A stretch of 64,000 nt of DNA. Origin: Capillimicrobium parvum (lineage in GTDB: Bacteria > Actinomycetota > Thermoleophilia > Solirubrobacterales > Solirubrobacteraceae). Of this stretch, positions 4,609-24,061 are shown one piece after another. Below the pieces are notes generated by a model. The model made no database searches, was not told the DNA's origin, and saw only the letters and a program-made list of their open reading frames with translations. The stretch lies in NCBI RefSeq assembly GCF_021172045.1, contig NZ_CP087164.1, positions 1,116,001-1,180,000 on the forward strand, written 5' to 3'. Both the position numbers and the translations under genes were made by a program. Positions within the stretch are counted from its first letter, which is position 1. Every line of letters begins with the position of its first letter.

Positions 4609-6069
4609 ATGGCGCACGTCGAGATCGTCGACCAGACCATCCGCGACGGCCCGCAGAGCCTCTGGGGCATGCGGATCCGCGCGGGCATGGTGACGAAGGT
4701 CGCCCCGCAGCTGCGGGCGGCCGGCTTCCACACGCTCGACGTCCCCGGCGGCTCGTTCTTCACGGTCATGCTGCGCCACCTGCGCGAGGACCCGGTCGCG
4801 TCGTTCGCGCACATCCGCCGGCTGCTGCGCGGGCAGACCCTGCGCTGTGGCACCCGGCCCTCGTCGACCGGCCGCTACGGGATCGCGTCCTACGCGAGCA
4901 TGGACTTCTACACGCGGTTCATGGTCCAGCGGCTCGGGATCGACGCGTTCTGGATCTACGACTGCCTGTACGACATGCCGGAGATGGAGCGCCGTGCCCG
5001 GTCCGTCCACGAGGCCGGCGGCGAGGTGGTGCCCGCGGTCATGTACGGCATCTCGCCGGTGCACACCGACGCGTGGTACGCCGAGCGCGTGCGCGAGATG
5101 GTCGGCTGGGGGATCACGTCGTCCATCTACGTGGAGGACGCGCCCGGCATCCTCACCCCGGAGCGCTGCCGGACGCTCATCCCCGCGCTCGTCGAGGCCG
5201 CCGGCGACGTTCCGGTCGAGCTGCACTGCCACAACACGACCGGCCTGGCCCCGCTGAACTACCTCATCGGCATCGAGCACGGCATCCGGCGCATCCACAC
5301 CTGTAGCCGCCCGGTGGCCAACGGGCCGTCGCTGCCGTCGACGGAGATGATGCTCGTCAACCTCGAGTCCGCCGGCCACACGCACCCGATCGACGCCTCG
5401 ACGCTGGCGCCGGTGGCCGAGCACTTCGAGCGCGTCGCGCTCCAGGAGGGCCACCCGCTCGGGGCGGTCACCGAGTACGACCGCCGCATCTACGACCACC
5501 AGCTTCCCGGCGGGATGACCGGCACGTTCAAGGCCCAGCTCGTCGAGCACGGCATGGAGGACCGCTTCGACGCCGTGCTCGAGGAGATCCCGCGGGTGCG
5601 TGAGGAGCTCGGCTACCCGGTGTCCGCGACGCCGTTCAGCCAGCTCATCGGCACCCAGGCGCTGCTGAACGTCGTCTCCGGCGACCGCTACTCGATCACC
5701 ACCGACGAGGTCGTGCTCTACACGATGGAGGCCTACGGCAAGCCTCCCGCGCCGATCGATCCCGACGTGAAGGACCGCCTGCTCTCCAGCCCGGCGGGCA
5801 AGCGCCTCGCCGGCTTCCGCCGGCCCGACCTGACGCTCGAGGAGCTGCGCATCCAGTCCGGCGGCCCGCACGTCTCCGACGAGGACCTCTTCCGGCTGAT
5901 CTTCACGCCCCAGGAGGATCTCGACGCGACCGCTGCCGCCGGGCCGCTGCGCACGGACTACGCCTTTCGGGAGAAGCCGGCGGACCTGCTGGCGCGCGCG
6001 ATGGACGCCAAGCATGCGCGGCGCGTGTCGCTGCACTCGCCGGGCGTGTCGATCGACCTGGCGCGCTGA
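4609..6069 (+). CDS. Carboxyltransferase-like HMGL-family enzyme (PycB/OadA-like) with altered metal ligand
   Basis: 486 residues. The first 320 or so follow the DRE-TIM-barrel carboxyltransferase of pyruvate carboxylase, oxaloacetate decarboxylase alpha and transcarboxylase 5S (DQTIRDGPQSL, LLRGQT, SPVHT, ELHCHNTTGLAPLNY). Metal ligands D8, H206 and H208 are kept. The lysine that is carbamylated and binds metal in this family (in IKDMAG) is here glutamate 176 (YVEDAPG). There is no biotin-carrier domain and no biotin carboxylase gene nearby. It could be a decarboxylase or lyase for an oxo-acid of the ureide locus rather than a biotin enzyme. The true substrate is unknown. Confidence 0.85.
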   Translation: MAHVEIVDQTIRDGPQSLWGMRIRAGMVTKVAPQLRAAGFHTLDVPGGSFFTVMLRHLREDPVASFAHIRRLLRGQTLRCGTRPSSTGRYGIASYASMDFYTRFMVQRLGIDAFWIYDCLYDMPEMERRARSVHEAGGEVVPAVMYGISPVHTDAWYAERVREMVGWGITSSIYVEDAPGILTPERCRTLIPALVEAAGDVPVELHCHNTTGLAPLNYLIGIEHGIRRIHTCSRPVANGPSLPSTEMMLVNLESAGHTHPIDASTLAPVAEHFERVALQEGHPLGAVTEYDRRIYDHQLPGGMTGTFKAQLVEHGMEDRFDAVLEEIPRVREELGYPVSATPFSQLIGTQALLNVVSGDRYSITTDEVVLYTMEAYGKPPAPIDPDVKDRLLSSPAGKRLAGFRRPDLTLEELRIQSGGPHVSDEDLFRLIFTPQEDLDATAAAGPLRTDYAFREKPADLLARAMDAKHARRVSLHSPGVSIDLAR

Positions 6070-6112
6070 GCGCAGTAGGAAGCCCGAATCCGGGCGCCCA
6101 GCTTAGGACTTT

Positions 6113-6124
6113 CTCCCATGGGAG
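6113..6124. repeat. Palindrome upstream of the aminotransferase gene
   Basis: CTCCCATGGGAG, a perfect 12-bp palindrome about 30 bp upstream of the start chosen at 6154, and a weaker GCCCG-AATC-CGGGC repeat at 6082-6095. They could be operators for one of the PucR regulators; this is inference. Confidence 0.35.
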
Positions 6125-6153
6125 CGTCCCGGGCACGGCCGGATACTCCGTTC

Positions 6154-7398
6154 ATGGGTCCGCGCACGCAGGACACCCGCCTCTGGCATCCGTTCAGCGA
6201 CATGGCCACGGTCCGCGACCGCGAGCTGGTCATCACCCGCGGCGAGGACGTCTGGCTGTGGGACGAGGACGGCAACCGGTACCTCGACGCCTTCGCCAGC
6301 CTCTGGTACACGAACATCGGGCACGGGCGAAGCGAGATCGCCGACGCGGTCGCCGCGCAGATGCGTGAGCTCGAGGCGTTCACGATCTTCTTCGACTACG
6401 CCAACCGCCCGGCGCTCGAGCTCGCCGAGCTGCTGGCCGAGCTGTCGCCGATGCCCGGCTCGCGGGTGATGCTCACGCCCGGCGGCGGCAGCGAGGCGAT
6501 CGACACGGCGGTGAAGATGGCGCGCCGCTACTGGTTCGAGATGGGCCAGCCCGACCGCCGCCATGTCGTCTCGCGCGCTCACGCCTACCACGGCTCCAAC
6601 GGGATCGGCACGGGCATCGGCGGCATCGACGCCAACCGGGACGGCTGGGGCGCCGCGCTGCCGGAGACCTCGCGCGTCGGCCACGACTCGGTCGAGGCGC
6701 TCGAGGGCGAGATCGCCCGCGTGGGGGCCGACCGCATCGCGGCGTTCGTCTGCGAGCCGGTCATGGGCGCCGGCGGCGTGCACCCGCCGCCGCCCGGCTA
6801 CATCGAGGGCGTCGCCGCGCTGTGCCGGGCGCACGACATCCTCTTCGTCTGCGACAGCGTCATCTGCGGCTTCGGGCGCCTCGGCACCTGGTTCGGCATC
6901 GAGCGCTGGAACGTCGAGCCGGACGTCATCACCTTCGCCAAGGGCGTCACCAGCGGCTACCTGCCCCTCGGCGGCGTGCTGTTCGGCGCGCGCGTGTGCG
7001 AGCCGTTCTGGTCGGAGCCCGGCAGGATGGTCCGCCACGGCTACACGTTCGCCGGCCACCCCGCGTGCTGCACGGCGGCGCTGGCGAACATCGCCGTGAT
7101 CGACCGCGAGGGGCTGCTGGACCGGGCGCTGGAGATCGAGCGCGACCTCACCGCGGTGCTGCGTCCGCTCGAGGACCATCCCGCGGTCGCCGAGGTGCGG
7201 TCCGGTACCGGGGCGATGGCCGCGGTCGAGCTCGTGGAGGAGGGCGGCGCGCCGGGGCTCATGATGCGGATGCGCGCCGCCGGGGTCCTCGTACGCGCCT
7301 CGAGCCCCACGGCGGTCGCGGTCTGCCCGCCCCTGACGATCACCCGCGAGCAGGTCGACACCATCGGCGAGGCGTTCGCGCACAGCCTGGGCGCGTGA
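6154..7398 (+). CDS. Class III (omega-type) aminotransferase
   Basis: 414 residues from the ATG at 6154, which lies 6 nt after a GATACT -10-like box; an ATG 12 codons upstream is also open but falls inside a palindrome. It is a PLP fold-type I class III enzyme: LTPGGGSEAIDTAVKMAR, RAHAYHGS, DSVICGFGRLG and the PLP lysine in FAKGVTSGY. Relatives move amino groups from beta-alanine, alanine or other omega-amino acids to pyruvate or glyoxylate. Its stop overlaps the next start (GTGA). In this locus an alanine-glyoxylate or beta-amino-acid role is attractive but unproven. Confidence 0.95.
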   Translation: MGPRTQDTRLWHPFSDMATVRDRELVITRGEDVWLWDEDGNRYLDAFASLWYTNIGHGRSEIADAVAAQMRELEAFTIFFDYANRPALELAELLAELSPMPGSRVMLTPGGGSEAIDTAVKMARRYWFEMGQPDRRHVVSRAHAYHGSNGIGTGIGGIDANRDGWGAALPETSRVGHDSVEALEGEIARVGADRIAAFVCEPVMGAGGVHPPPPGYIEGVAALCRAHDILFVCDSVICGFGRLGTWFGIERWNVEPDVITFAKGVTSGYLPLGGVLFGARVCEPFWSEPGRMVRHGYTFAGHPACCTAALANIAVIDREGLLDRALEIERDLTAVLRPLEDHPAVAEVRSGTGAMAAVELVEEGGAPGLMMRMRAAGVLVRASSPTAVAVCPPLTITREQVDTIGEAFAHSLGA

Positions 7399-8756
7399 TC
7401 GCCCAGCTGCGGCGGATCGCGGGCGATGACGCCGTCATCGAGGGGGCGCCGGCGCCCTATGCGTCGGACGCCACGCAGGAGACGCTCGGTCTGCGCGGCA
7501 GCGCGCGGGCGACCGTACGCCCGCCGGACGCCGAACGGGTCCGCCGGGTCGTCGCCTGGTGCTACGACCACGACGTGCCGATCGTGCCGCGCGGCGGCGG
7601 CACGGGCTTCGCGGGCGGCGCGGTGCCGAGCGAGGACGCCGTCGTGCTGTCGCTCGAGCGGCTCGATCGGTTCCGCGAGCTGGAGCCGGCAGCGTGGCGC
7701 GCCCACGTGGAGGCCGGCGTGTCGACCGCCACGGTCACGCGCCGCGCGCGCGAGTCCGGCCTCCTGTTCCCGCCGAACCCGGGCGCCGCCGAGCAGTCGC
7801 AGATCGGCGGCAACGTCGCGACGAACGCCGGCGGTCCGCGCGCGTTCAAGTACGGCGTCACGCGCCGGTGGGTGACCGGCCTGGAGGCGGTCGTCGCTCC
7901 CGGCGAGGTGCTGCGCACCGGCGGCGCGGTCCGCAAGGACGTCACCGGCTACGACCTCACCGGCCTGCTGTGCGGCTCCGAGGGGACGCTCGGGGTCGTC
8001 ACGTCGGTGTGGCTGCGCTTCGTCCCGCTGCCCGAGCGCAGCGCCCAGGTGGCCGGCTTCTACGAGTCGGCCGCGGACGGCTGCGCCGCGATCGCCGCGG
8101 TCTTCGCCAGCGGCGGGCAGCCCGCGGCGCTCGAGTACGTCGACGCCGGCGCGCTCGCCGCCACGGCCGCCGCCTTCCCGGCCGCCGTGCCCGCCGGCGC
8201 GCGCTTCCTCGTGCTCGCCGAGGCCGACGGCCGCGACGCCGAGGTCGCGTCCGACGCCGCGGAGCTGGGCGAGGCGCTCGCCGCCGGCGCCCTGCTGACG
8301 CATGTCGCGACCACGCGCGGCGACCTCGACGCGCTCGCCCGCTGGCGCGAAGGCGTGTCCGGGGCGGTCACCGGCCTGCTCGGCGCGAAGGTGTCGGACG
8401 ACGTCGCGGTCCCGGTCGAGCGCCTGGCCGAGATGCTCGAGCGCGCCGACGCGATCGGCGCGCGCCACGGCCTGCGGACCTGCAGCTGGGGCCACGCGGG
8501 CGACGGCAACCTGCACGTCAGCTTCCTCCTGCCGCCGGGCGACCTGCCGCTGCGCGCTGCGGCCATGCGCGCCAGCCACGAGCTCCACGCCGCGGCCGTC
8601 GAGCTCGGCGGCGCGATCTCCGGCGAGCACGGCATCGGCAGCGTCAAGCGCGGAGAGCTCGGCCTCCAGCTCGGCGACGTCGGCCTGCGCCTGCACGCCG
8701 CCGTCAAGCAGGCGCTCGACCCCAAGGGCCTCTTCAACCCGGGCAAGAAGCAATGA
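7395..8756 (+). CDS. FAD-linked 2-hydroxyacid dehydrogenase (GlcD-like)
   Basis: 453 residues from a GTG overlapping the previous stop. The N-terminal half is an FAD_binding_4 (VAO/PCMH-type) domain with PRGGGTGFAGG and GGNVATNAGGPRAFKYGVT; the C-terminal half is the FAD-linked oxidase C domain, with GHAGDGNLH and the GEHGIGSVKR signature near the end. Such enzymes oxidise glycolate, D-lactate or D-2-hydroxyglutarate in the cytoplasm or at the membrane. GlcE and GlcF partners are absent, so it may pass electrons to another acceptor. It is coupled to the ThDP enzyme by an ATGA overlap. Confidence 0.93.
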   Translation: MIAQLRRIAGDDAVIEGAPAPYASDATQETLGLRGSARATVRPPDAERVRRVVAWCYDHDVPIVPRGGGTGFAGGAVPSEDAVVLSLERLDRFRELEPAAWRAHVEAGVSTATVTRRARESGLLFPPNPGAAEQSQIGGNVATNAGGPRAFKYGVTRRWVTGLEAVVAPGEVLRTGGAVRKDVTGYDLTGLLCGSEGTLGVVTSVWLRFVPLPERSAQVAGFYESAADGCAAIAAVFASGGQPAALEYVDAGALAATAAAFPAAVPAGARFLVLAEADGRDAEVASDAAELGEALAAGALLTHVATTRGDLDALARWREGVSGAVTGLLGAKVSDDVAVPVERLAEMLERADAIGARHGLRTCSWGHAGDGNLHVSFLLPPGDLPLRAAAMRASHELHAAAVELGGAISGEHGIGSVKRGELGLQLGDVGLRLHAAVKQALDPKGLFNPGKKQ

Positions 8757-10420
8757 CGGTGGCGGACGGGATCGTCGCGGCGCTCGCGGAGCGCGCCGTG
8801 GACACCGTGTTCGGGATCCCGGGCGTGCACAACCTCGCGCTGTTCGCGGCGCTCGAGGCGGGCGGCGTGCGCACCATCGTCGTACGCCACGAGGCGACCG
8901 CCGCGTACGCCGCCGACGTCCACGGCCGCCTGACGGGCCGGCCCGGCGTCTGCGTGACGACCTCCGGCCCCGGGGCGGCCAACGCGGTCGCGGCGATGGG
9001 CGAGGCGCAGGCGTCGTGCTCGCCGCTGCTGCACGTCACCACCACCGTCGCGCGCCGCCACCTCGACGCCGGCGTCTCGCGCGGCGTGCTGCACGAGCAC
9101 CCCCGCCAGCGCGACATCTTCGCCCCGGTGTCGAAGCTCGCCGTCCGTGCCGACGACCCGGCGACGGTCGCCGCGATCGTCGGGCACGCGTTCGACACCG
9201 CCGCGCTCGCGCCGTGCGGGCCCGCCTACGTGGAGATCCCGACCGACGTGCTCGCGGAAGCGGCGCCCGGTCCGACCGGCCTGCCCGGGGCCACGCCGCC
9301 CGAGCGGACGCCGGCGCCCACGCGCCCGGTCCTGCGCGAGCTCGCCCAGCGCCTCGAGCGCGCGGAGCGGCCGCTGATCTGGGTCGGGTCCGGCGGGGCG
9401 CCCCACGCCCCGGAGGTGCTCGAGCTCGCGGAGCGCCTCGGCGCGCCCGTCGTGCTGACCCACAGCGCCAAGCGCGCGTGGAGCGGGGGCGGGCCGCCGC
9501 TCGTCGTCCGCCATCCGCCGCACGAGCCGGCGATCGGCGACCTCTGCGCCGCCGCGGACGCCGTCCTCGTCCTGGGCAGCGACCTCGACGGGATGATGAC
9601 CCAGGAGTTCCGGCTGCCGCTGGCCGGCGTCCTGCGCGTGGACGTCGACCCGCGGCGCATGGACCTCTCCTACCCGAGCGAGCTCGCGGTGCCGGGCGAG
9701 GTGGAGGGCGTCGTGCGCGGCCTGCTCGCGCTCGTCGGCCCGCGCGCGGGCGGAGGATGGGGCGCCGGCGCGGTCGCCCGAGCCGATGCCGCCGCAGCGA
9801 GCGCGCTCGACGGCGACGGCGACGCGGCGGCCGGGCTGACCTACGTCTCGGCGCTGGACCGCGCCATCGGCGACGCGCAGGTCGTCGTCGCCTGCGACAT
9901 GGCGATCTCCGGCTACTGGACCGCGGCGTACCTGCCGCTGGGCGCGTCGCGCCGGATCGTCTACCCGGTGGGCTGGGGCACGCTCGGATTCGCGCTGCCG
10001 GGAGCGATCGGCGCGGCGCGCGCGGGCGCCGGCCGGGCGATCGTCGTCTGCGGCGACGGCGGCGTGCTGTTCGCGATCGGCGAGCTGGCGACCATCGCCC
10101 AGGAGGAGCTGCCGGTGACCATCGTCGTCCAGACGGACGGCGGATACGGGATGCTGCGCTACGACGAGGAGCGCATGTACGACCGGACGTTCGCGGTCGA
10201 CCTCCGCGCGCCGGACTTCCCGGCGCTGGCCGGCGCCTTCGGCCTGCCGGCCGAGCGCGTCGACTGCCTCGACCCCGGCCTCCCGGACGTTCTCGCGCGC
10301 GCTGTGCAGGGCCGGGGCCCGAACCTCGTCGACGTCATCGGCCGGCTGACCCCGCCGCGCACCACCTCGCCGCGTTGGCCGCTGGTCGCCCACCCCTCAG
10401 GGCCTCCCGGTAGGCCCTGA
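8753..10420 (+). CDS. Thiamine-diphosphate enzyme (acetolactate synthase-like fold)
   Basis: 555 residues with the three-domain ThDP plan: an N-terminal PYR domain (FGIPGVHNLALF and the catalytic glutamate in VRHEATAAYAA), a central domain (about 190-320) and the C-terminal PP domain, where GDGG about residue 430 starts the Mg-ThDP motif ending at QTDGGYGM. The usual NN of that motif is TD here. Substrate cannot be assigned; glyoxylate carboligase, 2-oxoacid decarboxylase or a synthase are options. With a glycolate-type dehydrogenase upstream and ureide hydrolases downstream, glyoxylate is my preferred guess. Confidence 0.9.
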   Translation: MTVADGIVAALAERAVDTVFGIPGVHNLALFAALEAGGVRTIVVRHEATAAYAADVHGRLTGRPGVCVTTSGPGAANAVAAMGEAQASCSPLLHVTTTVARRHLDAGVSRGVLHEHPRQRDIFAPVSKLAVRADDPATVAAIVGHAFDTAALAPCGPAYVEIPTDVLAEAAPGPTGLPGATPPERTPAPTRPVLRELAQRLERAERPLIWVGSGGAPHAPEVLELAERLGAPVVLTHSAKRAWSGGGPPLVVRHPPHEPAIGDLCAAADAVLVLGSDLDGMMTQEFRLPLAGVLRVDVDPRRMDLSYPSELAVPGEVEGVVRGLLALVGPRAGGGWGAGAVARADAAAASALDGDGDAAAGLTYVSALDRAIGDAQVVVACDMAISGYWTAAYLPLGASRRIVYPVGWGTLGFALPGAIGAARAGAGRAIVVCGDGGVLFAIGELATIAQEELPVTIVVQTDGGYGMLRYDEERMYDRTFAVDLRAPDFPALAGAFGLPAERVDCLDPGLPDVLARAVQGRGPNLVDVIGRLTPPRTTSPRWPLVAHPSGPPGRP

Positions 10421-10421: not shown

Positions 10422-10433
10422 CGCCGCGCCGGT

Positions 10434-10449: not shown

Positions 10450-11946
10450 ATGCAGCGATTCACGCTGGCCGACGTCCTCGCCCAGGAGTCGCTCGGCCTG
10501 CGCCTCATGACGAGCGAACGCGGCGCGCTCGACCGGCTCGTCATGGGCGCCCACGGCACCGAGGCGCTGCACCCGATGCCGTGGATGCAGCACGACTGGG
10601 TGCTGCTGATCACCGGCGTGCGGCTCGTCGACCGTCCCGACCTGCAGCGCCACCTCGTCGAGGAGCTCGCCGACGGCGGGCTCGCCGCCCTCGGCTTCGG
10701 CGTCGGCATCGACTTCGACGAGGTGCCGGGCGAGCTCACCCGTGCCGCGGAGGAGCGCGGCTTCCCGGTCTTCGAGATCCCGCTGCGCACGCCGTTCCGG
10801 GAGATCATCACGTTCGTCAACCGGTCGCTGCTGAGCACCGAGGTGCACCAGATGCGGCGGCTGACCTCGATGCGGGAGTTCCTCCTCGACGCGCTGCAGG
10901 ATGCCGAGCCGCAGCAGCGCGTCGTCCAGCGCCTGGCCTCGCTGCTGTCGTGCACCGTCGCGCTGTTCGGCGTCGACGGCCGGCTGCTGCACGCCTCGGG
11001 CCCGGTGCCCCCGGACGAGCTGTGGGACGCGGTCGCGCTGCACGCGAAGGGCGGGGCGCCCGAGGTCCGCGGCACGCCGCCGGCGATCGCCGCCGTGCGC
11101 GACCGCGAGCTGGTCGCCGGCTGGCTCATCGTCGTGCGGCGCTCGCTCGACTCAGACGTCTACGCGCGGCCGCTCGTCGAGATGACCGCGGCCCTGCTGA
11201 GCACGCTCGCCGGCGTCCAGCGCATCTCGGCGGGGCGCCGGCGCGCGGAGCACGCCGCGTTCGTCAGCGACCTGCTGGCGGGCACGCGCGAGGACGAGGT
11301 CTGGCGCCACCGCGCCGCGGAGCTCGGGCTCGAGCTGGGCGGGCCGGTGGCGCTGCGCGCGATCGCGGCGGCGGGCGGCCCGCCGGACGCGCTCGCCGGC
11401 CGGCTCGACGCGGCGCTGGCGGCGCCGCCGGCGCTGTCGCGCCTGACGGCGCGGCGCGGGGAGGCGGCCGTCGCGGTCGTCCAGGCCCCGGACGCCGAGC
11501 TGCGCGGCCGGCTCGACGAGCTGTACCGCCGGCTCGGCGACGCCGCGATCGCCGTCGGCCGCCGTGCGGCGACCGTCCACGAACTGCGCGACTCGATCGC
11601 CGACGCGCTGCGGTCGGTCACCGGCGAGGCGGGCCGGGGCGCCGAGGTCGTCTGGTACGAGGACCTCGATCTCCTCAGCTGGCTGCTGCGCTGCGGCGAC
11701 GACGACGGCCTGGCCCGCAAGGCGCGCGCCGTCCTCGAGCCGCTGGCCGGGGACGCGGTCCTGCTGGAGACCCTCGACCGCTATTTCGCCTGCGGCCTGC
11801 ACGTCGTCCGCACCGCGAGGTCGCTGGGCCTGCACCCGAACTCGCTGCGCTACCGCCTCAGCCGCATCGAGGAGCGCCTCGGCCGCTCGCTGCAGGACCC
11901 GGAGACGATCGCCGCGCTGCACCTCGCGCGCCGGGCGTCGCGCTGA
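10450..11946 (+). CDS. PucR family transcriptional regulator
   Basis: 498 residues, full length for the family. Residues 1-125 form the purine-catabolism PucR N-terminal domain (FTLADVLAQESLGLRLMTS), the middle is a GAF-like sensor and GGDEF-like CdaR region, and the C-terminus holds the helix-turn-helix (LGLHPNSLRYRLSRIEERLG). Named relatives activate purine and ureide degradation. It sits between the ThDP unit and the urease/hydantoinase unit, on the same strand, with its own -10 box. I infer that it controls one or both units. Confidence 0.95.
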   Translation: MQRFTLADVLAQESLGLRLMTSERGALDRLVMGAHGTEALHPMPWMQHDWVLLITGVRLVDRPDLQRHLVEELADGGLAALGFGVGIDFDEVPGELTRAAEERGFPVFEIPLRTPFREIITFVNRSLLSTEVHQMRRLTSMREFLLDALQDAEPQQRVVQRLASLLSCTVALFGVDGRLLHASGPVPPDELWDAVALHAKGGAPEVRGTPPAIAAVRDRELVAGWLIVVRRSLDSDVYARPLVEMTAALLSTLAGVQRISAGRRRAEHAAFVSDLLAGTREDEVWRHRAAELGLELGGPVALRAIAAAGGPPDALAGRLDAALAAPPALSRLTARRGEAAVAVVQAPDAELRGRLDELYRRLGDAAIAVGRRAATVHELRDSIADALRSVTGEAGRGAEVVWYEDLDLLSWLLRCGDDDGLARKARAVLEPLAGDAVLLETLDRYFACGLHVVRTARSLGLHPNSLRYRLSRIEERLGRSLQDPETIAALHLARRASR

Positions 11947-11996
11947 CGGTTCGCACATCGTCTGAAGTCGAACGGGCCCCTTTGGACGATCTCCAG

Positions 11997-12015
11997 TGTC
12001 GGTGTCCGACATAGG
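11997..12015. promoter_or_regulatory. Inverted repeat upstream of the ureide operon, motif shared with the 20.47 kb gap
   Basis: TGTCGG-TGT-CCGACA (11997-12011) overlaps GTCCGACATAGG (12004-12015). The same 12 bases recur at 20471-20482, before the oxidase gene. Two copies in front of two segments of one catabolic locus suggest a shared regulator site; binding is inferred. Confidence 0.5.
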
Positions 12016-12035
12016 CCCGACAGAATGGGGGCGGA

Positions 12036-13022
12036 GTGAGGAGCGCTGAGGACAGCCCGGCTGCGCCGGTCGTCGCCGTCGTCGACTGCGGTCCCGACGA
12101 CCGCCCGCGGCTCGAGCGCCTCGAGGCGGCGGTTCCCACGCGCGTCTGCGACGGTCCCGCCGAGGGCGGCGCACTGGTCGAGCGGGCCGCCGGGTGCGCG
12201 GTCCTCGCCACGCTCTACACGTACACGCCGGTCACGGAGGCGGTCCTCGACGGCCTGCCCGGCCTGCGGCTCGTGATCACGCGGACCGCGGGCTCGTCGC
12301 ACATCGACCTCGGCGCCGCGCAGCGGCGCGGGATCGCGGTCGCCACGGTGCCCGAGGGCCCGACCCAGGCCGTCGCCGAGTACACGATCGCCGCGGCGAT
12401 CGCCCTCAGCCGCGGCCTGCCCGCCGCGGTCGCGTCCACCGCGCGCGGAGAGTGGGACTTCACCGGCTTCCGCGGCCATGACCTCGGCGGCCGCACGCTC
12501 GGCGTGGTCGGGCTGGGCCACATCGGCGCGCGGGTCGCGCAGCTGGGGCAGGCCTTCGGCATGCGCGTCGTGGGGTGGAGCCGCTCGGAGAAGGGCCTCG
12601 ACGGCGTCGAGCAGGTGCCGCTGCCGGCGCTGCTGCAGCGCGCGCACGTCGTGTCGGTCAACGTCGCGCTGGCGGCGGAGACGCACCGCCTGCTCGACGC
12701 GGCCGCCCTGGCCCGGATGCGCCCGGACGCGGTGCTGGTCAACACGTCGCGCGGCGAGACGATCGACCTCGACGCGCTGTGCGACCTGCTGCGCGCCGGG
12801 CGCCTGGGCGGCGCGTGGCTCGACGTGGTGGAGGGCGAGCCGGGGCTCCCGGCCGAGCGCCTCGAGGCGCTCGCGGCGGTCCCGAACCTCTTCGTCACTC
12901 CGCACATCTCCTGGCACACGCACGAGACGCTCGACCGTCAGTTCGACGGGATGATCGACCGCATCCTCGCGTTCTGCGCGCAGGACCACCGAACGGAGGA
13001 GCCGCACCATGCCAGCCCATGA
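12036..13022 (+). CDS. NAD(P)-dependent D-2-hydroxyacid dehydrogenase
   Basis: 328 residues from a GTG. It has the Rossmann motif GVVGLGHIGARVA (about residue 155) and the catalytic trio of the family: arginine in NTSRGE, glutamate in DVVEGEP and histidine in TPHISWHTH. Glyoxylate/hydroxypyruvate reductases and D-lactate or phosphoglycerate dehydrogenases share this plan. First gene of the urease/hydantoinase unit, it overlaps the amidohydrolase by 14 bp. Reduction of glyoxylate or an oxo-acid left after ureide cleavage would fit, but substrate is not shown by sequence. Confidence 0.93.
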   Translation: MRSAEDSPAAPVVAVVDCGPDDRPRLERLEAAVPTRVCDGPAEGGALVERAAGCAVLATLYTYTPVTEAVLDGLPGLRLVITRTAGSSHIDLGAAQRRGIAVATVPEGPTQAVAEYTIAAAIALSRGLPAAVASTARGEWDFTGFRGHDLGGRTLGVVGLGHIGARVAQLGQAFGMRVVGWSRSEKGLDGVEQVPLPALLQRAHVVSVNVALAAETHRLLDAAALARMRPDAVLVNTSRGETIDLDALCDLLRAGRLGGAWLDVVEGEPGLPAERLEALAAVPNLFVTPHISWHTHETLDRQFDGMIDRILAFCAQDHRTEEPHHASP

Positions 13023-14675: not shown

Positions 14676-14926
14676 GGCCGGGCGAGATCATCCTGGCCGA
14701 TGCGCCTGCGCCCGCGGCCGATCACGCCCGGACCGCCACCGTCGCGGTGACGAACGCCGGCCGCTTCGACGCCTACCTGACATCGCACTTCCCCGTGGCG
14801 CGCGCGTCGGCGGCGCTGCGGTTCGACCGCGACGGGCTCGACGGCGCGCGCCCGCTGCTGCCGTCGGGCGCGAGCGTCCTCATCCCCGCCGGCGCGACCG
14901 TGGACGTGGAGGTCACGTGGAGCTGA
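14672..14926 (+). CDS. ureB: Urease beta subunit homologue, shortened
   Basis: 84 residues from a GTG. It begins with the UreB hallmark RPGEIILAD and keeps the VTNAGRFDAYLTSHF and LRFDRDG blocks, but lacks the C-terminal 15-20 residues (the GFNG-type tail) found in usual UreB, which is about 100 residues long. The SHFHF motif is SHFPV here. The frame is intact and overlaps both neighbours, so the shortening looks natural rather than a break. It supports the idea of a divergent urease-like enzyme. Confidence 0.85.
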   Translation: MRPGEIILADAPAPAADHARTATVAVTNAGRFDAYLTSHFPVARASAALRFDRDGLDGARPLLPSGASVLIPAGATVDVEVTWS

Positions 14927-16596: not shown

Positions 16597-18651
16597 ATGA
16601 CGACCCGCCGCCTGGGAATCGACGTGGGAGGGACGTTCACCGACGTCCTGCTCCACGACGCCGCCGACGGCAGCGTCCGCCTGCTCAAGACGGCGACGAC
16701 CACCGGGGACCAGTCGCGCGGCGTCGTGTCCGGCCTGTCGGAGATCTGCCGGCGGGCGGGCATCGGCCCCGAGCAGCTCGGCGCGATCATGCACGGCACG
16801 ACGGCGGCGACGAACGCGGTGCTCGAGGGGCGCGGCGCGAAGGTCGGCGTCATCGTCAACGAGGGCTTCCGCCACCTCTTCCACCTCGCCGAGGCGTGGA
16901 CGCCGGGGCCGCTGTTCGGCTTCATGGTCTACGACCGCCCGGCGCCGCTGGTGGGCGTCGAGCTCATGGCCGAGGTGCGCGGCCGGATGGGCGCGGGCGG
17001 CGAGGAGGTCGAGCCGCTCGACGAGGCGAGCGTCGAGGCCGCGGTCGCCCAACTGGTCGCGGCGGGGGCCGAGGCGGTCACCGTCTGCCTGCTGAGCTCG
17101 TACGCCAACCCGGACCACGAGCGCGCGGTGGGCGCGATCGTCGCGCGTGTCGCGCCCGGGCTGCCGGTCTCCCTGTCCGCCGACGTGCTCGCCGAGTTCC
17201 GCGAGTACGAGCGGGCGGTCACCACCACGATGAACGCGTACGTGGCGCCCGAGATGGACCGCTACCTGCGCGGCCTGCGCGACGGCCTCGACGCCGTCCG
17301 CGCGGGCGCGGAGCTGCAGGTCGTCCGGTCCGACGGCGGCCTGATGAGCCTCGACGCGGCGCGCGCGACGCCGGTGCACACGATGCTCTCCGGACCGGCC
17401 GGCGGCGTCAGCGGCGCCGCGCACGTCGCCCGGCTGGCCGGCCATGAGCGCATCATCACCTTCGACATGGGGGGCACGTCGACCGACGTGTCGGCGAGCC
17501 TCGACGGCCGGCCGCAGATCACGCGCGAGACGAAGGTCGGGGCGTTCCCGATGCGCGTCCCGTCGGTCGCGGTCGAGACGATCGGGGCGGGCGGCGGCTC
17601 CATCGCCAGCGTGTCCGAGGTCACCGGCGGCCTGCGGGTCGGGCCGGAGAGCGCGGGCGCGGTCCCGGGGCCCGCGTGCTACGGCAACGGCGGCACCGAG
17701 GCGACCGTCACCGACGCCAACGTCGTGCTCGGCCACCTCCCGCCGCGGCTGCTAGGCGGAGCGATGACCCTCGACGTCGACGCCGCGCACGCCGCGGTCG
17801 CCCGGGTCGGCGAGCAGCTCGGCCTCGGCGTCCCGGAGACGGCGCAGGCGATCGTCCGGCTCGTCGACGAGAACATGCTCGGCGCGCTGCGCCTGGTGAC
17901 CGTGCAGCGCGGCATGTCCGCCGACACGTTCGCGCTCGTCCCGTTCGGCGGTGCGGGCGCGCTGCACGCCAACGCGCTGGCGGCCACGCTCGGCTGCTTC
18001 CCGGTCATCGTGCCGCTCGAGCCGGGCGTGCTGTCCGCGCTCGGCTTCCTGGTCTCCGACGTGCGCAGCGAGTTCAGCCGGACGTTCATCCGCGCGGTCG
18101 CCGACGTCGCGCCGGGCGAGATCGCCGACCGGCTGCGCGCCCTGGGCGAGGAGGCGGCGGCGTTCCTGGACCGTGAGGGCGTGGCCGCCGCCGACCGCGA
18201 GGTGCGCTACGCGGCCGACATGCGCTACCACCGCCAGGGCTACGAGCTGCCGATCGCGATCGACGACCTCGAGGAGCTCACACTCGCGCAGCTCGGCGAC
18301 GCCTTCACGGCGACCCACGAGCAGCTCTACGGCTTCGGCCTGCCGGGCGGCGCGGAGCTCGTCACGCTGCGGGCGGTCGGCATCGGGCGGGTGCCCGCGA
18401 TCGAGATGCCGGCCCGGCCGCTCGGTCCGCCCGACGCCGCCGCGGCCAGGACGGGCACCCACCCCGTCTGGGACGGCAGTGGGTTTCGCGACGTCCCCAC
18501 CTACGACCGGGACCGCCTGGCGCCCGGCATGGTCCTCGACGGGCCGGCGATCGTCGAGCAGTACGACGCGACGACGCTCGTGCTCGCCGGCCACGTCGCC
18601 GCCGTCGACCAGCACGCCAACCTGCTCATCACCCCGGGGGGCACCGCATGA
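16597..18651 (+). CDS. hyuA: Hydantoinase A / 5-oxoprolinase subunit homologue
   Basis: 684 residues with the N-terminal hydantoinase/oxoprolinase signature GIDVGGTFTDVLLHD, MHGTTAATNAVLEG near residue 70, the ATPase-type TFDMGGTSTDVS (about 290) and VPFGGAGALHA (about 450). Family members use ATP to open hydantoin, N-methylhydantoin or 5-oxoproline rings with the HyuB partner. It follows the urease-like alpha gene by 9 bp with a GAGGAG ribosome site, and its stop overlaps the hyuB start (ATGA). Substrate unknown. Confidence 0.93.
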   Translation: MTTRRLGIDVGGTFTDVLLHDAADGSVRLLKTATTTGDQSRGVVSGLSEICRRAGIGPEQLGAIMHGTTAATNAVLEGRGAKVGVIVNEGFRHLFHLAEAWTPGPLFGFMVYDRPAPLVGVELMAEVRGRMGAGGEEVEPLDEASVEAAVAQLVAAGAEAVTVCLLSSYANPDHERAVGAIVARVAPGLPVSLSADVLAEFREYERAVTTTMNAYVAPEMDRYLRGLRDGLDAVRAGAELQVVRSDGGLMSLDAARATPVHTMLSGPAGGVSGAAHVARLAGHERIITFDMGGTSTDVSASLDGRPQITRETKVGAFPMRVPSVAVETIGAGGGSIASVSEVTGGLRVGPESAGAVPGPACYGNGGTEATVTDANVVLGHLPPRLLGGAMTLDVDAAHAAVARVGEQLGLGVPETAQAIVRLVDENMLGALRLVTVQRGMSADTFALVPFGGAGALHANALAATLGCFPVIVPLEPGVLSALGFLVSDVRSEFSRTFIRAVADVAPGEIADRLRALGEEAAAFLDREGVAAADREVRYAADMRYHRQGYELPIAIDDLEELTLAQLGDAFTATHEQLYGFGLPGGAELVTLRAVGIGRVPAIEMPARPLGPPDAAAARTGTHPVWDGSGFRDVPTYDRDRLAPGMVLDGPAIVEQYDATTLVLAGHVAAVDQHANLLITPGGTA

Positions 18652-20432
18652 CCATCGACGGACCCACGCTCGACCTCATCGAGAACGCGCTGCTCAACGT
18701 CCGCTTCGAGATGGACGAGGTCGTCCGCCGCGCCGCGATGTCGCCCATGATCCGCGAGCAGCACGACGAGTTCCCGATGGTGTGCGACCGCCACGGGCGG
18801 ATGGTCGTCGGCCAGTTCGGCTCCTACATCCCCGGCATCGTCGAGCGCCTGCGCGGCGACGTCCGCCGGGGCGACGTCATCCTGTTCAACGATCCGTACC
18901 TCAGCCAGGGGTCGATCACGCACTGCAACGACTGGTGCGTCGTCATGCCGATCTTCTTCGAGGACCGCCACATCGGCTTCTCGTCGATGTTCGGGCACAT
19001 GATGGACGTCGGCGGCAAGGTCGCGGGCAGCCAGGTCAACGACGCGACGTCGATCTGGGAGGAGGGGCTGCGCATCCCGCCGATCAAGATCGTGGAGGGC
19101 GGCGTGCTCAACCGCACCGCGCTCGACGTCATCCTCAACAACAGCCGCACGCCGGACATGAACGAGAGCGACCTCATGGCGCTCATCGCCGGCTGCCGGA
19201 CCGCCGAGACGCGCGTGATCGAGCTGTGCACCCGCTTCGGCGCCGATCCGTACGAGGCGGCGTGCGCGGCGCTCATCGAGCGCACCCGCGTGGCGCTGGG
19301 CGCGCTCGTGCGCCGCTACATCCCCGAGGAGCCGGTCACCTTCACCGACTGGGTCGACGACGACGGGATGGGCAACGGCCCGTTCCGGATCGTGCTCACG
19401 GTCTGGCGCGAGGGCGACGTCTGCCACGTCGACTGGACCGGCACCGACGCGCAGGCGCCGGGCACGATCAACTTCCGCATCAACGACGGGCTGTGCAAGC
19501 TGTTCTTCGGGATCTACCTGATCATGGCCTTCGACCCTTCGATCCTGTTCAACGACGGGGTGCGCGACGTGTTCGACGTGACGCTCCCGGAGGGGTCGCT
19601 GCTGAACCCGCGCTTCCCGGCCGCCGTGTCGAACCGGCTCAACGTCCACGTCCGGTTCTTCGACTGCATGAGCGGTGCGATGGGCCAGCGCGCGCCTGAC
19701 CTGGCGATGGCCGCGGGCTACGGCGCCAGCCCGTACTTCGTGTTCTCCGGCACCGACGACCACGACCGCTACTTCCAGTTCGTCGAGCTGCTGTTCGGCG
19801 GGCTGCCGGGCCGGCAGCGCGGCGACGGCCTCGACGGGCACTCGTGGTGGCCGCTGTTTCGCACGACGCCGGTCGAGTACACCGAAGCGCACTACCCGGT
19901 GCGGGTGACGCGCTACGTGCCGGTGGCGGACTCCGGCGGGGCCGGCCTGCATCGCGGGGGCACCGGCGTCGAGAAGACGTACGAGTTCCTCTCCGCCGGC
20001 GTGTTCACGATCAACGACGACCGCGCGATCACGAACCCGTGGGGGGTGGCCGGGGGCCGGGCCGGCGGCCGCGGCTCGAAGCTGCTCGTCCGGGCCGACG
20101 GGCGCGAGGTGCCGCTGCCGTCGAAGGTCGACAACCTGGCGGTGGAGCCGGGCGACCGGTTCGTCTTCCGCACCGCGGGCGCGGGCGGCTGGGGCGACCC
20201 GCTCGAGCGTCCCGCCGAGCGCGTCGCGGCGGACGTGCGCTCGCTGATCGTCACGCCGGACGGCGCGCGCGACGACTACGGGGTGGTCGTCGACGCCGGC
20301 GGCGCGGTCGACGACGAGCAGACCGCGGCCCTGCGGACCCGGCTGCGGGAGCGGCGCGGCGGCCTGGCGCCGTTCGACTTCGGCGACCCGCCCGGGCGCC
20401 CGGAGCGCTTCGACGCTTCCGTCGTGGCCTGA
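18648..20432 (+). CDS. hyuB: Hydantoinase B / 5-oxoprolinase subunit homologue
   Basis: 594 residues, standard for HyuB. Landmarks are the opening ENALLNVRFEMDEVVRR, FNDPYLSQGSITHCND (about 82-97), VDWTGTDAQAPGTINF (about 265) and GGAGLHRGGTGVEKTY (about 428). It forms the catalytic partner of HyuA in ATP-dependent ring opening. After its stop comes a 59-bp gap holding an inverted repeat and the 12-bp motif shared with 12.0 kb, so a second transcript may start there. Confidence 0.93.
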   Translation: MTIDGPTLDLIENALLNVRFEMDEVVRRAAMSPMIREQHDEFPMVCDRHGRMVVGQFGSYIPGIVERLRGDVRRGDVILFNDPYLSQGSITHCNDWCVVMPIFFEDRHIGFSSMFGHMMDVGGKVAGSQVNDATSIWEEGLRIPPIKIVEGGVLNRTALDVILNNSRTPDMNESDLMALIAGCRTAETRVIELCTRFGADPYEAACAALIERTRVALGALVRRYIPEEPVTFTDWVDDDGMGNGPFRIVLTVWREGDVCHVDWTGTDAQAPGTINFRINDGLCKLFFGIYLIMAFDPSILFNDGVRDVFDVTLPEGSLLNPRFPAAVSNRLNVHVRFFDCMSGAMGQRAPDLAMAAGYGASPYFVFSGTDDHDRYFQFVELLFGGLPGRQRGDGLDGHSWWPLFRTTPVEYTEAHYPVRVTRYVPVADSGGAGLHRGGTGVEKTYEFLSAGVFTINDDRAITNPWGVAGGRAGGRGSKLLVRADGREVPLPSKVDNLAVEPGDRFVFRTAGAGGWGDPLERPAERVAADVRSLIVTPDGARDDYGVVVDAGGAVDDEQTAALRTRLRERRGGLAPFDFGDPPGRPERFDASVVA

Positions 20433-20442
20433 CATGTGGGAT

Positions 20443-20482: not shown

Positions 20483-20491
20483 AGGACGGCA

Positions 20492-21631
20492 GTGGCGAGG
20501 GTGTGCGTCGTCGGGGCAGGCGTCGTCGGCGCGTGCGCTGCGCTGCGCCTCACGCAGGCCGGGGCCGACGTCACGGTGATCGACGCGGGGCCGCCCGCGG
20601 GCGGCACGAGCGCCACGAGCTTCGCGTGGGGCGGGGCCAGCCACCACGGCCTGCGCGACTACCTCGAGCTGCACGTCGACGGGCTGCGCGCCTACCGCCG
20701 GCTCGAGCTCGAGATGGACGCGCGGGCGTGGTACGGGCGCACCGGCTGCCTGACCTGGCGCAGCGATCCGGCGGCGGCGGGCTCGCTCGCCGCGCATCTC
20801 GAGGACCTCGGCCGCCGCGGCTACCCGGCGAGCTGGCTCACGCCGGCGGCGGTGACCCGCGACCTCGAGCCGGACCTGCGCTTCGCGGCCGGCGTCGGCG
20901 AGGTCGCGTTCCTGCCCGACGAGGCGCACGTCGCCGCGGTGCCGATGGTGCGCGACGTGCTCGGCGCCGCCCGCGCCGGCGGGGCCGTCGTGCGCACGGG
21001 TGCGCGCGTGCGGGAGATCGCGCTCCGCGGCGACGCGGTGGCGGGCGTGACGCTCGCCGGCGGCGAGACGATCGCCGCCGATCGCGTCGTCGTCTGCGGC
21101 GGCCGCGGGTCGAGCGAGGTCGTGGCCACCGCGGGCGGCCATCTGCCGCTGCTGGATCCCGACACGCCGGGATCGCCGGCGCTCGGCCTGCTCGTCGTCA
21201 CCGCACCGCTGCCGGCGCGCGTGCGGCGGGTCCTCTACGCCGACGAGCTCATGGTGCGCCCGGACGGCGGCGCGCGGCTCATGCTCCACAGCGACCCGCA
21301 CGACGCCGAGCTGGCGGCCGCCCCGGGAACCGATCCGGCGCCGCTCGCCGGCGCGGTGCTCGGCGAGCTGCGCCGCCACCTCGACGGCGCCGAGCACGCG
21401 AGCGTCGAGGCGACCCGCATCGGCCGCCGCGTCCTGACGCCCGACCACCTGCCCGCGGTCGGGTGGATCGGCGACGCCGCCGGCCTGTACGTCGCCGCGA
21501 CGCACAGCGGCGTGAGCCTCGCGCCCGTCCTCGGCGAGCTGATCGCCGACGAGGTCGCGCGCGAACGCCCGTCGCCGGCACTCGACCGCTTCCGCCCCAC
21601 GCGCTTTGCGAAGGAGCTCTCCAATGCATGA
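20492..21631 (+). CDS. FAD-dependent oxidoreductase (DAO/DadA-like)
   Basis: 379 residues from a GTG with ribosome site GGAGG 7-11 nt upstream. The N-terminus is a dinucleotide-binding fold (VCVVGAGVVGACAALRLTQAG) and the C-terminus has GLYVAATHSGVSLAP, typical of the D-amino acid oxidase/glycine oxidase/sarcosine oxidase superfamily. These remove hydrogen from amines or amino acids, giving imines and then oxo-acids plus ammonia. It overlaps the dihydropyrimidinase-like gene by 8 bp. D-amino acids from hydantoin hydrolysis would be a sensible substrate; this is inferred from context. Confidence 0.9.
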   Translation: MARVCVVGAGVVGACAALRLTQAGADVTVIDAGPPAGGTSATSFAWGGASHHGLRDYLELHVDGLRAYRRLELEMDARAWYGRTGCLTWRSDPAAAGSLAAHLEDLGRRGYPASWLTPAAVTRDLEPDLRFAAGVGEVAFLPDEAHVAAVPMVRDVLGAARAGGAVVRTGARVREIALRGDAVAGVTLAGGETIAADRVVVCGGRGSSEVVATAGGHLPLLDPDTPGSPALGLLVVTAPLPARVRRVLYADELMVRPDGGARLMLHSDPHDAELAAAPGTDPAPLAGAVLGELRRHLDGAEHASVEATRIGRRVLTPDHLPAVGWIGDAAGLYVAATHSGVSLAPVLGELIADEVARERPSPALDRFRPTRFAKELSNA

Positions 21632-23102
21632 CCTGCTGATCGCCGGCGGCACCGTCGTCACGCCCGCCGGGAGCGAGCCGCTCGACGTCGCCGTCGACGG
21701 CGAGCGCATCGCCGTGCTCGCGCCTCACGGCGAACTGGGCCGCGATGCGCGCCGCGTCATCGACGCCGCCGGGTGCCTCGTGATCCCGGGGGCGATCGAC
21801 CCGCACGTCCACTACGCGATGAACTTCGAGGGCATACTCACGACCGAGGGCCCCGAGTACTCGGCGGCCGCCGCGTACGGAGGCAACACCACCGTCGTCG
21901 ACTTCGCCTTCCAGGCGCCGCCCCAGAGCCTGCACGACGCGATCGCCGCCAAGCAGGCCGTGCTCGGGGGCGCGATGGCCGTCGACTACGGCCTGCACGC
22001 GATCCTCACCAAGGACTTCTCGTTCGACGTCGTCGAGGAGATCGGCGACGTGATCCGCGCCGGCATCCCGACGATCAAGACGATGCTGACCTACGGGTAC
22101 ATGTCCGACGACGGGCAGCGCTGGGGGACGATGAACGCCGTCGCGCAGAACGGCGGCATGAGCGTCGTGCACGCCGAGGACGACGCGATCGCCCGCTGGC
22201 TCACCGCGCAGTACGTGCGCGAGGGCAAGACTCACGGCGCCTACATCTGCGAGGTCCGCGGCCCGATCGTCGAGGAGGCCGCGATCCGCCGGGCGATGTT
22301 CCTCGCCGAGCGCTCCGGGTCGCCGCTGTACGTCCTGCACATGGCGGCCGGCAGCGGCGTCGCCGCGCTCGCCGAGGGAAGGGCGCGCGGGCTGCCGTTC
22401 TACGGCGAGACGCTCAGCGCGTACCTGAGCTTCACGCAGGACGACCTGTGGGACGAGTCGCCGGTCGACGTCGACGGGACCATCTACCCCCAGCGCGGCC
22501 TGCTGTTCAACAACTACCCGACGCCGAAGTTCGGGCCCGACCGCGACGCCTGCTGGGCGGCGCTGGTCTCCGGCGACCTGCAGGCGGTGGCCACCGACCA
22601 CTGCCTCGTGAGCCTGAAGGACCGCTTCGAGACGATGGGAACGACCGTCGACAGCATGCAGGCGGGCCAGGCGGCGGTCGAGCTGCGGGTGCCGCTGCTC
22701 TACGACGGCGGGGTCAACGGCGGGCGCTTCAGCGTCGAGCGCTGGGTCGAGCTCATCTCGGTCAACCCGGCCAAGCTCATGGGCCTGTGGCCGCGCAAGG
22801 GCCGCCTCGCGCCGGGCGCCGACGCGGACGTCGTGGTCTTCGACCCGCAGAAGCGCTGGACCGTCCGTTGGGAGGATCTGCACATGAAGGAGCGCTACAG
22901 CTGCTGGGACGGCTGGGAGCTGACCGGCAAGGTGCGCGACACCATCCTGCGCGGGACCGCGATCGTCGACGGCGGGCGGTTCGTGGGCGACAGCGGCGGC
23001 GGGCGGTACGTCCCCCGGCGGATGCTGCCGGAGGTGCTGCGCGGCGACTTCGCGTTCACGGCGCAGGCGCTCGGCGCCCCGCAGCCGGAGCCGGCGGCAT
23101 GA
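21624..23102 (+). CDS. Dihydropyrimidinase/D-hydantoinase-like amidohydrolase
   Basis: 492 residues, start at ATG 21624 with AAGGAG 7 nt upstream. It shows the dihydropyrimidinase metal set: HVH in AIDPHVHYAM (about residue 59), the lysine of TIKTMLTYG (about 152), HAED (about 185), LHMAAGSG (about 238) and the aspartate of ATDHCLVS (about 330). NPAKLMGLWPRKG is the normal C-terminal block. It is the second cyclic amidohydrolase of this locus, besides the allantoinase-like gene at 13.0 kb, suggesting two ring substrates or two steps. It overlaps the acetamidase-like gene by 4 bp. Confidence 0.93.
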   Translation: MHDLLIAGGTVVTPAGSEPLDVAVDGERIAVLAPHGELGRDARRVIDAAGCLVIPGAIDPHVHYAMNFEGILTTEGPEYSAAAAYGGNTTVVDFAFQAPPQSLHDAIAAKQAVLGGAMAVDYGLHAILTKDFSFDVVEEIGDVIRAGIPTIKTMLTYGYMSDDGQRWGTMNAVAQNGGMSVVHAEDDAIARWLTAQYVREGKTHGAYICEVRGPIVEEAAIRRAMFLAERSGSPLYVLHMAAGSGVAALAEGRARGLPFYGETLSAYLSFTQDDLWDESPVDVDGTIYPQRGLLFNNYPTPKFGPDRDACWAALVSGDLQAVATDHCLVSLKDRFETMGTTVDSMQAGQAAVELRVPLLYDGGVNGGRFSVERWVELISVNPAKLMGLWPRKGRLAPGADADVVVFDPQKRWTVRWEDLHMKERYSCWDGWELTGKVRDTILRGTAIVDGGRFVGDSGGGRYVPRRMLPEVLRGDFAFTAQALGAPQPEPAA

Positions 23103-24061
23103 GCCTCGCCGAGACCGCCCGGGAGATCCGGACCGAGAACTACAGCTACGCCTTCAGCCCGTACCCCGAGCCCATCGCGCGCGTGGCGTCCGGCGAGCTG
23201 CTGGACATCTTCACCGACGACGCGTTCGAGTCGCGCGTGCAGAGCGTGGACGACCTGCCGTCGAAGGTGCTCACCGACCCGTACCTGAACCCGCAGACCG
23301 GCCCGATCTTCGTCGAGGGCGCCGAGCCCGGCGACACGCTGTGCGTCGAGATCCTCGAGATCGCGCCGGAGCGCGACTTCGTCGCCAGCGCGCACATCCC
23401 GTACTTCGGCGGGCTGACCGGGACGGCGGCGACGGCGATGCTCAACGAGCCGCTGCCCGAGCGCGTGTTCATCTACCCGCTGCGCGACGGCTTCGTGGAG
23501 ATGCCCCACGGCGTGCGGATCCCGTATGCGCCGTTCCTGGGGACGATCGGGACGGCGCCGCTGTTCGAGGCGATCAGCTCGCTGACGCCGGGGCCGTTCG
23601 GCGGCAACATGGACGTCGCCGACGTCTGCGCCGGCAACGTCGTGCGCCTGCCGGTCCGCGTCGAGGGCGCGTACTTCTACACCGGCGACGCGCACGCGGC
23701 CCAGGGCGACGGCGAGCTGTGCGGCGTCGCGTGCGAGATGACCGCGCGGGTGCGGCTGCGCCTCACCGTCGAGAAGGGCACGGCGGCGCCGTGGCCGCGG
23801 ATCGTCTCACCCGGGCAGCTCATGAGCGTCGGCAGCGCCCGGCCGATGGAGGACGCGGCGCGCATCGCCTATCACGACCTGCTCACGTGGCTCGAGGCCG
23901 ACTACGGCTGGGACCGCTGGGAGGCCTACCAGCTGCTGACCCAGGCCGGGCGCGTGCGGCTGGGCAACATGGTGGACCCGCAGTACTCGGTCGTCGCGAA
24001 GATCGACCGTGAGCTGGCCGAGGCGGCCAGGTCAGGTCGAGGAGGAGACGGAGTCCGCTGA
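23099..24061 (+). CDS. Acetamidase/formamidase family protein
   Basis: 320 residues with FmdA/AmdA family features: GPIFVEGAEPGDTLCVEILEI (split across about residues 62-85), GPFGGNMDVADVC (about 161-173) and the GDAHAAQGDGELCG metal/active region (about 195-208). Family members cleave formamide, acetamide and similar small amides. It is shorter than the formamidase at 51.0 kb (417 residues), so it belongs to another subgroup. Last gene of the ureide locus; its 3' end overlaps the end of the convergent receiver gene by 30 bp. Confidence 0.9.
   Translation: MSLAETAREIRTENYSYAFSPYPEPIARVASGELLDIFTDDAFESRVQSVDDLPSKVLTDPYLNPQTGPIFVEGAEPGDTLCVEILEIAPERDFVASAHIPYFGGLTGTAATAMLNEPLPERVFIYPLRDGFVEMPHGVRIPYAPFLGTIGTAPLFEAISSLTPGPFGGNMDVADVCAGNVVRLPVRVEGAYFYTGDAHAAQGDGELCGVACEMTARVRLRLTVEKGTAAPWPRIVSPGQLMSVGSARPMEDAARIAYHDLLTWLEADYGWDRWEAYQLLTQAGRVRLGNMVDPQYSVVAKIDRELAEAARSGRGGDGVR

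Follow-up and report, generated by a model that had tools for sequence, protein, structure and literature searches.

Nickel ureases, such as that of Klebsiella aerogenes, are composed of three subunits, UreA, UreB and UreC (gamma, beta and alpha), and are accompanied by the accessory proteins UreDEFG. N-carbamoyl compounds are formed by enzymes of other kinds: hydantoinase-type enzymes yield ureido acids, N-carbamoyl amino acids among them, as in hydantoin utilisation operons (e.g., HyuH-HyuC of Arthrobacter), and agmatine deiminase yields N-carbamoylputrescine. In a 64-kb stretch of the genome of Capillimicrobium parvum, a soil-type actinobacterium (the whole stretch is referred to here as the window), the genes of a urease-like trio are embedded in a run of 15 genes (positions 4609-24061), next to the gene of a hydantoinase-like cyclic amidohydrolase (AH1). 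The trio shares with nickel ureases the three subunits, arranged in the same order, as well as the metal and catalytic residues; it differs from them in the absence of UreD and UreG, in the loss of the flap Cys, in a changed substrate loop and GGGHAP motif, in UreC and UreB scores below the equivalog cut-offs, and in the linkage to AH1 and to an ATP-dependent hydantoinase (HyuAB).

Accessory-free urease-like genes have been described before. The Streptomyces ure(AB)C genes (SCO5525-5526), likewise lacking accessory genes, were noted in 2008 (PMC2492869); in 2012, they were listed as urea-utilising, and SCO5527 was placed among the homologues of the ADC pathway (PMC3293853). In these clusters UreA and UreB are fused and the neighbour belongs to the deiminase family, whereas in the window UreA and UreB are separate and the neighbour is hydantoinase-like. 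Bacillus subtilis UreABC, which also lacks accessory genes and is likened here by description rather than by sequence, is reported to hydrolyse urea, some active urease being made without them according to two papers (PMC8600894, PMC2770081, citing Kim 2005). In comparison with the Arthrobacter operon, AH1 resembles the L-hydantoinase (1gkr), but UreABC stands where the HyuC carbamoylase would be expected. Unusual carbamoyl-removing enzymes have also been found through gene neighbourhood in the AguA-AguY pathway (PMC12283126) and in the case of the Rubrobacter UGTCase (PMC4016543), although these belong to the amidase and carbamoyltransferase families, respectively, and not to the urease family; the former paper, which deals with the hydrolysis of N-carbamoylputrescine and appeared in 2025, makes no mention of urease in its main text. 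In the open-licence literature searched, no proposal of an N-carbamoyl role for accessory-free urease-like proteins was found, nor any description of an AH1-UreABC-HyuAB operon or of any other urease-hydantoinase operon; searches of this literature for urease-like enzymes of hydantoin or agmatine metabolism were likewise negative.

A urease-like trio without maturation genes

The three subunits are encoded contiguously (14367-16587) by ureA (14367-14675; Urease_gamma, 94 bits), a short ureB of 84 codons (14672-14926; Urease_beta, 36 bits) and ureC (14917-16587). The match of UreC to solved ureases spans the entire protein (E 4e-136), and since the identity with them is about 45%, the predicted urease fold of UreC is taken as fixed; the identity with the standard ureases of the order is 44-48%. 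UreC belongs to the urease family, and not to the M20, nitrilase or amidase families of the known N-carbamoyl amidohydrolases (HyuC/AllC, AguB and AguY), which it could resemble in function only. Among the NCBIfam equivalogs, UreA passes its cut-off (84 vs. 82 bits), whereas UreC (534 vs. 680) and UreB (39 vs. 90, TIGR00192) fall below theirs. The initial annotation had correctly recorded a urease-like trio, without noticing its non-canonical nature or the missing maturation genes.

The metal ligands (HxH, Lys217, His246, His272 and Asp360) and the catalytic His219, His320 and Arg336 are kept in the window UreC, and this set of nine residues is complete in each of the 50 UreC sequences examined. 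The flap Cys319, retained in 20 out of 21 standard sequences, is missing from every non-canonical UreC checked; in the window UreC the flap reads TVHRLH in place of VCHHLD, and GGGP takes the place of GGGHAP. The substrate-facing loop is FDLGINP-like in the window UreC (FDVGINP), while the other non-canonical classes have WNLGxNP there; the loop change is not decisive alone, since one standard subtype accompanied by UreD and UreG varies there too. The analysis of the UreC phylogenetic tree revealed that the standard sequences, those of the core loci described below and those linked to agmatine-deiminase-family genes are separated with full support.

The UreC of the locus is the only urease alpha subunit encoded in the one-contig, 5.95-Mb genome of C. 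parvum. A genome-wide profile search retrieved no UreD, and the best genome-wide match for UreG reached 24 bits against a cut-off of 204, ruling out a standard urease whose accessory genes lie elsewhere. Across 48 genomes, in some of which the class of UreC was assigned by score and flap residue only, both UreD and UreG are present in 24 out of 24 genomes with a standard UreC (four of which, G282, G329, G148 and G013, harbor both kinds of UreC), whereas the 24 genomes whose UreC is solely non-canonical have neither; not all the loci compared are phylogenetically independent. As a control, the same approach detected PF00449 and not UreD in B. subtilis. Outside the class, a phylum-wide search disclosed no additional core UreC. 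A contig scan with two short UreC peptide patterns found four loci only, the genome searches being more productive.

Organization and conservation of the locus

The 15 genes all lie on the forward strand. At nine junctions neighbours share 1-14 bp, and the remaining gaps range from 9 to 89 bp, with the largest located 5' of the D-2-hydroxyacid dehydrogenase (2HADH) gene. The Pfam E-values of the proteins range from 5e-9 (UreB) to 5e-140 (HyuB) and the G+C content at the third codon position is 0.92-0.98 in most genes, on the basis of which chance gene calls can be excluded. Pfam and NCBIfam searches recovered every function named in the initial annotation, which had also given the outer coordinates exactly and pointed out the tight packing and the PucR regulator in the middle (10450-11946); its gene list omitted the first gene (4609-6069), which is pyruvate-carboxylase-B-like.

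In G145, a genome from the same family but a different genus, 11 genes are maintained in the same relative order (aminotransferase, GlcD, thiamine diphosphate (ThDP) enzyme, PucR, 2HADH, AH1, UreA, UreB, UreC, HyuA, HyuB), with identities of about 60-83% (e.g., 67% for the aminotransferase, 69% for the ThDP enzyme and 80% for HyuB). The carboxyltransferase-like first gene and the genes for the DadA/ThiO-like amino-acid oxidase (DAO), the second cyclic amidohydrolase (AH2) and the FmdA-like protein are absent from this locus. The shorter arrangement 2HADH-AH1-UreABC is kept in three more genomes (loci L058 and L059, belonging to G329 and G282, respectively, and L061); in L058 and L061, HyuAB also lies near this core, on the opposite strand and with 50-54% identity. 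Hence, the 19-kb run is not supported as a unit, as had been supposed: the order proposed as a check on it is conserved for the core and not for the outer genes. The supported unit is 2HADH-AH1-UreABC, usually with HyuAB and with the upstream wing common to G145, and the first gene and the downstream trio DAO-AH2-FmdA are additions of the window lineage.

The sixth core locus (G110) contains UreABC followed by a fused HyuAB (1286 aa), and is surrounded by genes for an ATP-binding cassette transporter, a DAO, a ThDP enzyme (42% identical to that of the window), an amino-acid dehydrogenase, and ornithine-cyclodeaminase-like, dihydropyrimidinase-like and M20 carbamoylase proteins; its DAO is a different one from that of the window. 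In the other five of the six core loci (window, G145, L058, L059 and L061), AH1 lies directly 5' of ureA. A reverse search retrieved AH1 orthologues (at least 54% identity) in exactly five of the 399 genomes of the class, all of them containing a core UreC, a co-occurrence for which the hypergeometric probability, ignoring shared ancestry, is 7e-11. At the thresholds used, UreC and AH1 are both absent from three sampled congeners, so that the distribution of the locus is patchy.

A possible route for cyclic ureides and its alternatives

The gene content might suggest that the locus is a PucR-controlled operon degrading a cyclic ureide of the hydantoin or allantoin type, with UreABC acting as the N-carbamoyl hydrolase of the route. 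We consider this quite possible, while stopping short of calling it probable. AH1 would open the ring to give an N-carbamoyl (ureido) acid, from which the UreABC-like complex, in the place of a HyuC/AllC-type carbamoylase, would split off the terminal carbamoyl group, releasing CO2 and NH3 and leaving an amino acid; its urease-type binuclear metal centre would be loaded without UreD or UreG. HyuAB may represent a second, parallel, ATP-dependent system for opening rings or amides. The amino acid released by UreABC would be converted into a 2-oxoacid by the aminotransferase and, in loci that have one, by the DAO, to be processed further by the ThDP enzyme, the 2HADH and the GlcD-like enzyme. No gene of the locus releases urea. 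Since accessory-free proteins of the urease fold are tied both to hydantoinase-type enzymes and to agmatine deiminase, they are most simply read as N-carbamoyl hydrolases.

In general terms, the locus is best read as converting a ureide into an oxoacid, in keeping with the ureide catabolic operon of the initial annotation. This reading is favoured by the structures closest to the ring-opening enzymes (L-hydantoinase for AH1, D-hydantoinase for AH2, N-methylhydantoinase for HyuA) and by the company of UreABC-HyuAB in G110, where dihydropyrimidinase-like, M20 carbamoylase, DAO, ThDP and amino-acid dehydrogenase genes are found. The complete route formerly suggested is not borne out, the outer genes being absent from the G145 locus, the glyoxylate branch having no glyoxylate carboligase with the hallmark residue and the substrate not being fixable. 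The latter is left between the hydantoin and the allantoin type because AH1 (13009-14367; Amidohydro_1, 90 bits) is nearest to L-hydantoinase among solved structures (1gkr, 258 bits; allantoinase, 215 bits) and to allantoinase among the NCBIfam families (307 bits, below the cut-off of 358). Its binuclear metal site (D59xH61xH63, K145, H182, H238 and D310) is complete. AH2 (21624-23102) scores 334 bits with the dihydropyrimidinase model TIGR02033, below the cut-off of 393, and 274 bits with D-hydantoinases; neither of the two proteins passes the equivalog cut-off for any one named activity.

The sister classes of UreC extend the picture. Accessory-free UreABC genes beside an agmatine-deiminase-family gene occur in Streptomyces-like and other actinobacterial genomes (L117-L122, L045, L047-L051, L097, L102 and L108). 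In 9 of the 13 loci of the agmatine-linked class this gene adjoins UreABC or is one gene away, on either side of it or in divergent orientation. All six Streptomyces-like loci have it as a direct neighbour, against none of seven standard urease loci (Fisher p 5e-4, uncorrected for ancestry). The neighbour scores 346 bits with PAD_porph and 258 bits with TIGR03380, against a cut-off of 382, so that it is not a confirmed AguA; a GGGxHCITQQ-type active-site motif is present in eight of the nine deiminases of the class, the ninth having GGGGIGCITQ. At the cut-off, no AguB was found in 22 genomes. More tentatively still, it may be that a broad Actinomycetota branch of the urease family, matured without UreD and UreG, consists of N-carbamoyl hydrolases, one class working after hydantoinase-like enzymes and another, as a hitherto unrecognised N-carbamoylputrescine hydrolase, after agmatine deiminase. 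If this were true, the step from N-carbamoylputrescine to putrescine would be filled in those genomes that contain an agmatine-deiminase-family gene and no AguB above cut-off, and urease annotation, nitrogen models and estimates of nickel demand for soil actinobacteria would change, as many genes may carry a urease annotation from sequence alone. It also raises the question of how a urease-type binuclear centre forms without UreDEFG, and of what is cut.

Several observations weigh against these proposals. At least five above-cut-off matches to the HyuC/AllC-type carbamoylase family are encoded elsewhere in the C. parvum genome (clearly so at 918385, 665207, 3730115 and 1937433; further ones are split or weaker), which rules out UreABC as the sole carbamoylase of the cell. 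In G110, AH1 is not found beside UreABC, and a HyuC/AllC-type gene lies about 10 kb away, so that UreABC is no simple replacement of the carbamoylase there. In G145 (L041), the genes for GlcD (7613-8973), PucR (10673-12192) and HyuA (17036-19032) are each interrupted or divided between two frames, as a result of either assembly error or gene decay. The cut-off behind the absence of AguB is strict, and there are other nitrilases. The genes of an intermediate class of UreC, with fused UreAB (L092-L096 and L105-L107), overlap or directly adjoin one for glycerate kinase (a pair that, in genus g98, lies beside apparent housekeeping genes), and glycerate kinase makes no N-carbamoyl product, a link that the proposal does not explain. 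Lastly, the lack of accessory genes would not by itself exclude a true urease, since B. subtilis is reported to make some active enzyme without them.

It is on this last point that UreABC might be seen as a true urease maturing without UreDEFG, maybe with another metal, within an operon of nitrogen scavengers for different substrates. The conservation of the metal ligands, His219, His320 and Arg336, the 44-48% identity with standard ureases and the reported B. subtilis precedent (PMC8600894 and PMC2770081), where the control search found PF00449 and no UreD, would fit such an enzyme; however, the flap Cys and the substrate loop are replaced, UreC and UreB score under the urease cut-offs, a urea-producing gene is absent from the locus, and the linkage is to two different families of N-carbamoyl-producing enzymes, which makes this explanation somewhat unlikely. 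Rather doubtful, too, is a special case of the ureide route leading from allantoin to glyoxylate, with AH1 as allantoinase, allantoate or ureidoglycolate as the substrate of UreABC, and glyoxylate as that of the aminotransferase, the GlcD-like enzyme and the 2HADH. PucR is a regulator type of purine catabolism, allantoinase is the top NCBIfam family for AH1, genes of the intermediate UreC class overlap one for glycerate kinase, and Rubrobacter has an allantoinase-linked carbamoyltransferase in place of allantoate amidohydrolase (PMC4016543). Nevertheless, AH1 is closer to L-hydantoinase among solved structures, the locus encodes no uricase, allantoicase or ureidoglycolate enzyme, and the ThDP enzyme has retained a Glu that is missing from glyoxylate carboligase.

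A creatinine or N-methylhydantoin route, in which HyuAB would be an ATP-dependent N-methylhydantoinase and the DAO a sarcosine oxidase, appears improbable: even though HyuA is nearest to N-methylhydantoinase (7hk5), the fused HyuAB of G110 is of about the same size as that enzyme and monomeric sarcosine oxidase belongs to the DAO family, the gene run lacks creatinine deaminase and creatininase, two ATP-independent hydantoinases would be superfluous, and the DAO, absent from the G145 locus, scores just 28 bits with the monomeric sarcosine oxidase model. Equally little probability is given to several unrelated catabolic units lying side by side by chance. The lack of conservation of the outer genes in G145 and the many places of the genome with HyuA paralogues would agree with it, but stops and starts overlap, an 11-gene order is retained in another genus, and AH1 and UreC co-occur.

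Individual enzymes and other genes of the window

The product of the first gene (4609-6069, 486 aa; PYC_OADA, 97 bits, and HMGL-like) resembles pyruvate carboxylase B and the alpha subunit of oxaloacetate decarboxylase. In the alignment with 5ks8, IKDMA is replaced by VEDAP, so that Glu occupies the place of the carboxylated Lys of the metal site, and Pfam found no biotinyl domain; on this basis, a biotin carboxyltransferase was rejected as a candidate, and the protein is probably not one. The class-III (omega) aminotransferase (6118-7398, with a possible alternative start at 6154; Aminotran_3, 282 bits) has as its closest solved structure 6gwi, annotated as putrescine aminotransferase. The GlcD-like 2-hydroxyacid oxidase/dehydrogenase (7395-8756), linked to flavin adenine dinucleotide (FAD), contains FAD-oxidase_C (178 bits) and FAD_binding_4, and scores 334 bits with the glcD model, under the cut-off of 568.

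The ThDP enzyme (8753-10420) belongs to the group of acetolactate synthases and 2-oxoacid decarboxylases. In glyoxylate carboligase, a Val replaces the conserved ThDP-activating Glu; since this Glu is retained here (RHEATAA), the hallmark is lacking and glyoxylate carboligase was ruled out. The enzymes suited to glyoxylate-type products that had been listed (aminotransferase, GlcD-like, ThDP enzyme and 2HADH) are all present, though the ThDP enzyme lacks that hallmark. The regulator has PucR, GGDEF_2 and HTH_30 domains, and the 2HADH (12036-13022; 2-Hacid_dh_C, 163 bits) is the first gene of the conserved core.

HyuA (16597-18651; Hydant_A_N and Hydantoinase_A, the latter with 318 bits) and HyuB (18648-20432; Hydantoinase_B, 468 bits), the two subunits of an ATP-dependent hydantoinase/oxoprolinase, possess the complete domain set; the match of HyuA to 7hk5 is of 440 bits. 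At the DNA level, HyuA is matched in about 20 separate places of the genome, an unusual number of paralogues. Downstream lie the genes of the FAD-dependent DAO (20492-21631; DAO, 144 bits) and, after AH2, of the FmdA/acetamidase-like amidase closing the run (23099-24061; FmdA_AmdA, 110 bits), which gives 302 bits with 5ubu, a putative acetamidase/formamidase. A second, full-length formamidase/acetamidase gene (51009-52552; FmdA_AmdA, 582 bits), which precedes a small FmdB-like gene of the zinc-ribbon type, is separate from that of the operon.

Immediately upstream of the operon, a Phd/YefM-type antitoxin and a PIN-domain toxin are encoded as a pair (3912-4507). Elsewhere in the window, genes for PaaK-like ligase, DUF35-like, thiolase-like and cytochrome P450 proteins are consecutive (28804-32906), and an aldehyde ferredoxin oxidoreductase gene (39275-48938 for the whole group) lies beside those for a formate-dehydrogenase-like molybdopterin protein, a NuoE/F-like protein and two MoeA proteins, one of them with a PBP_like domain.

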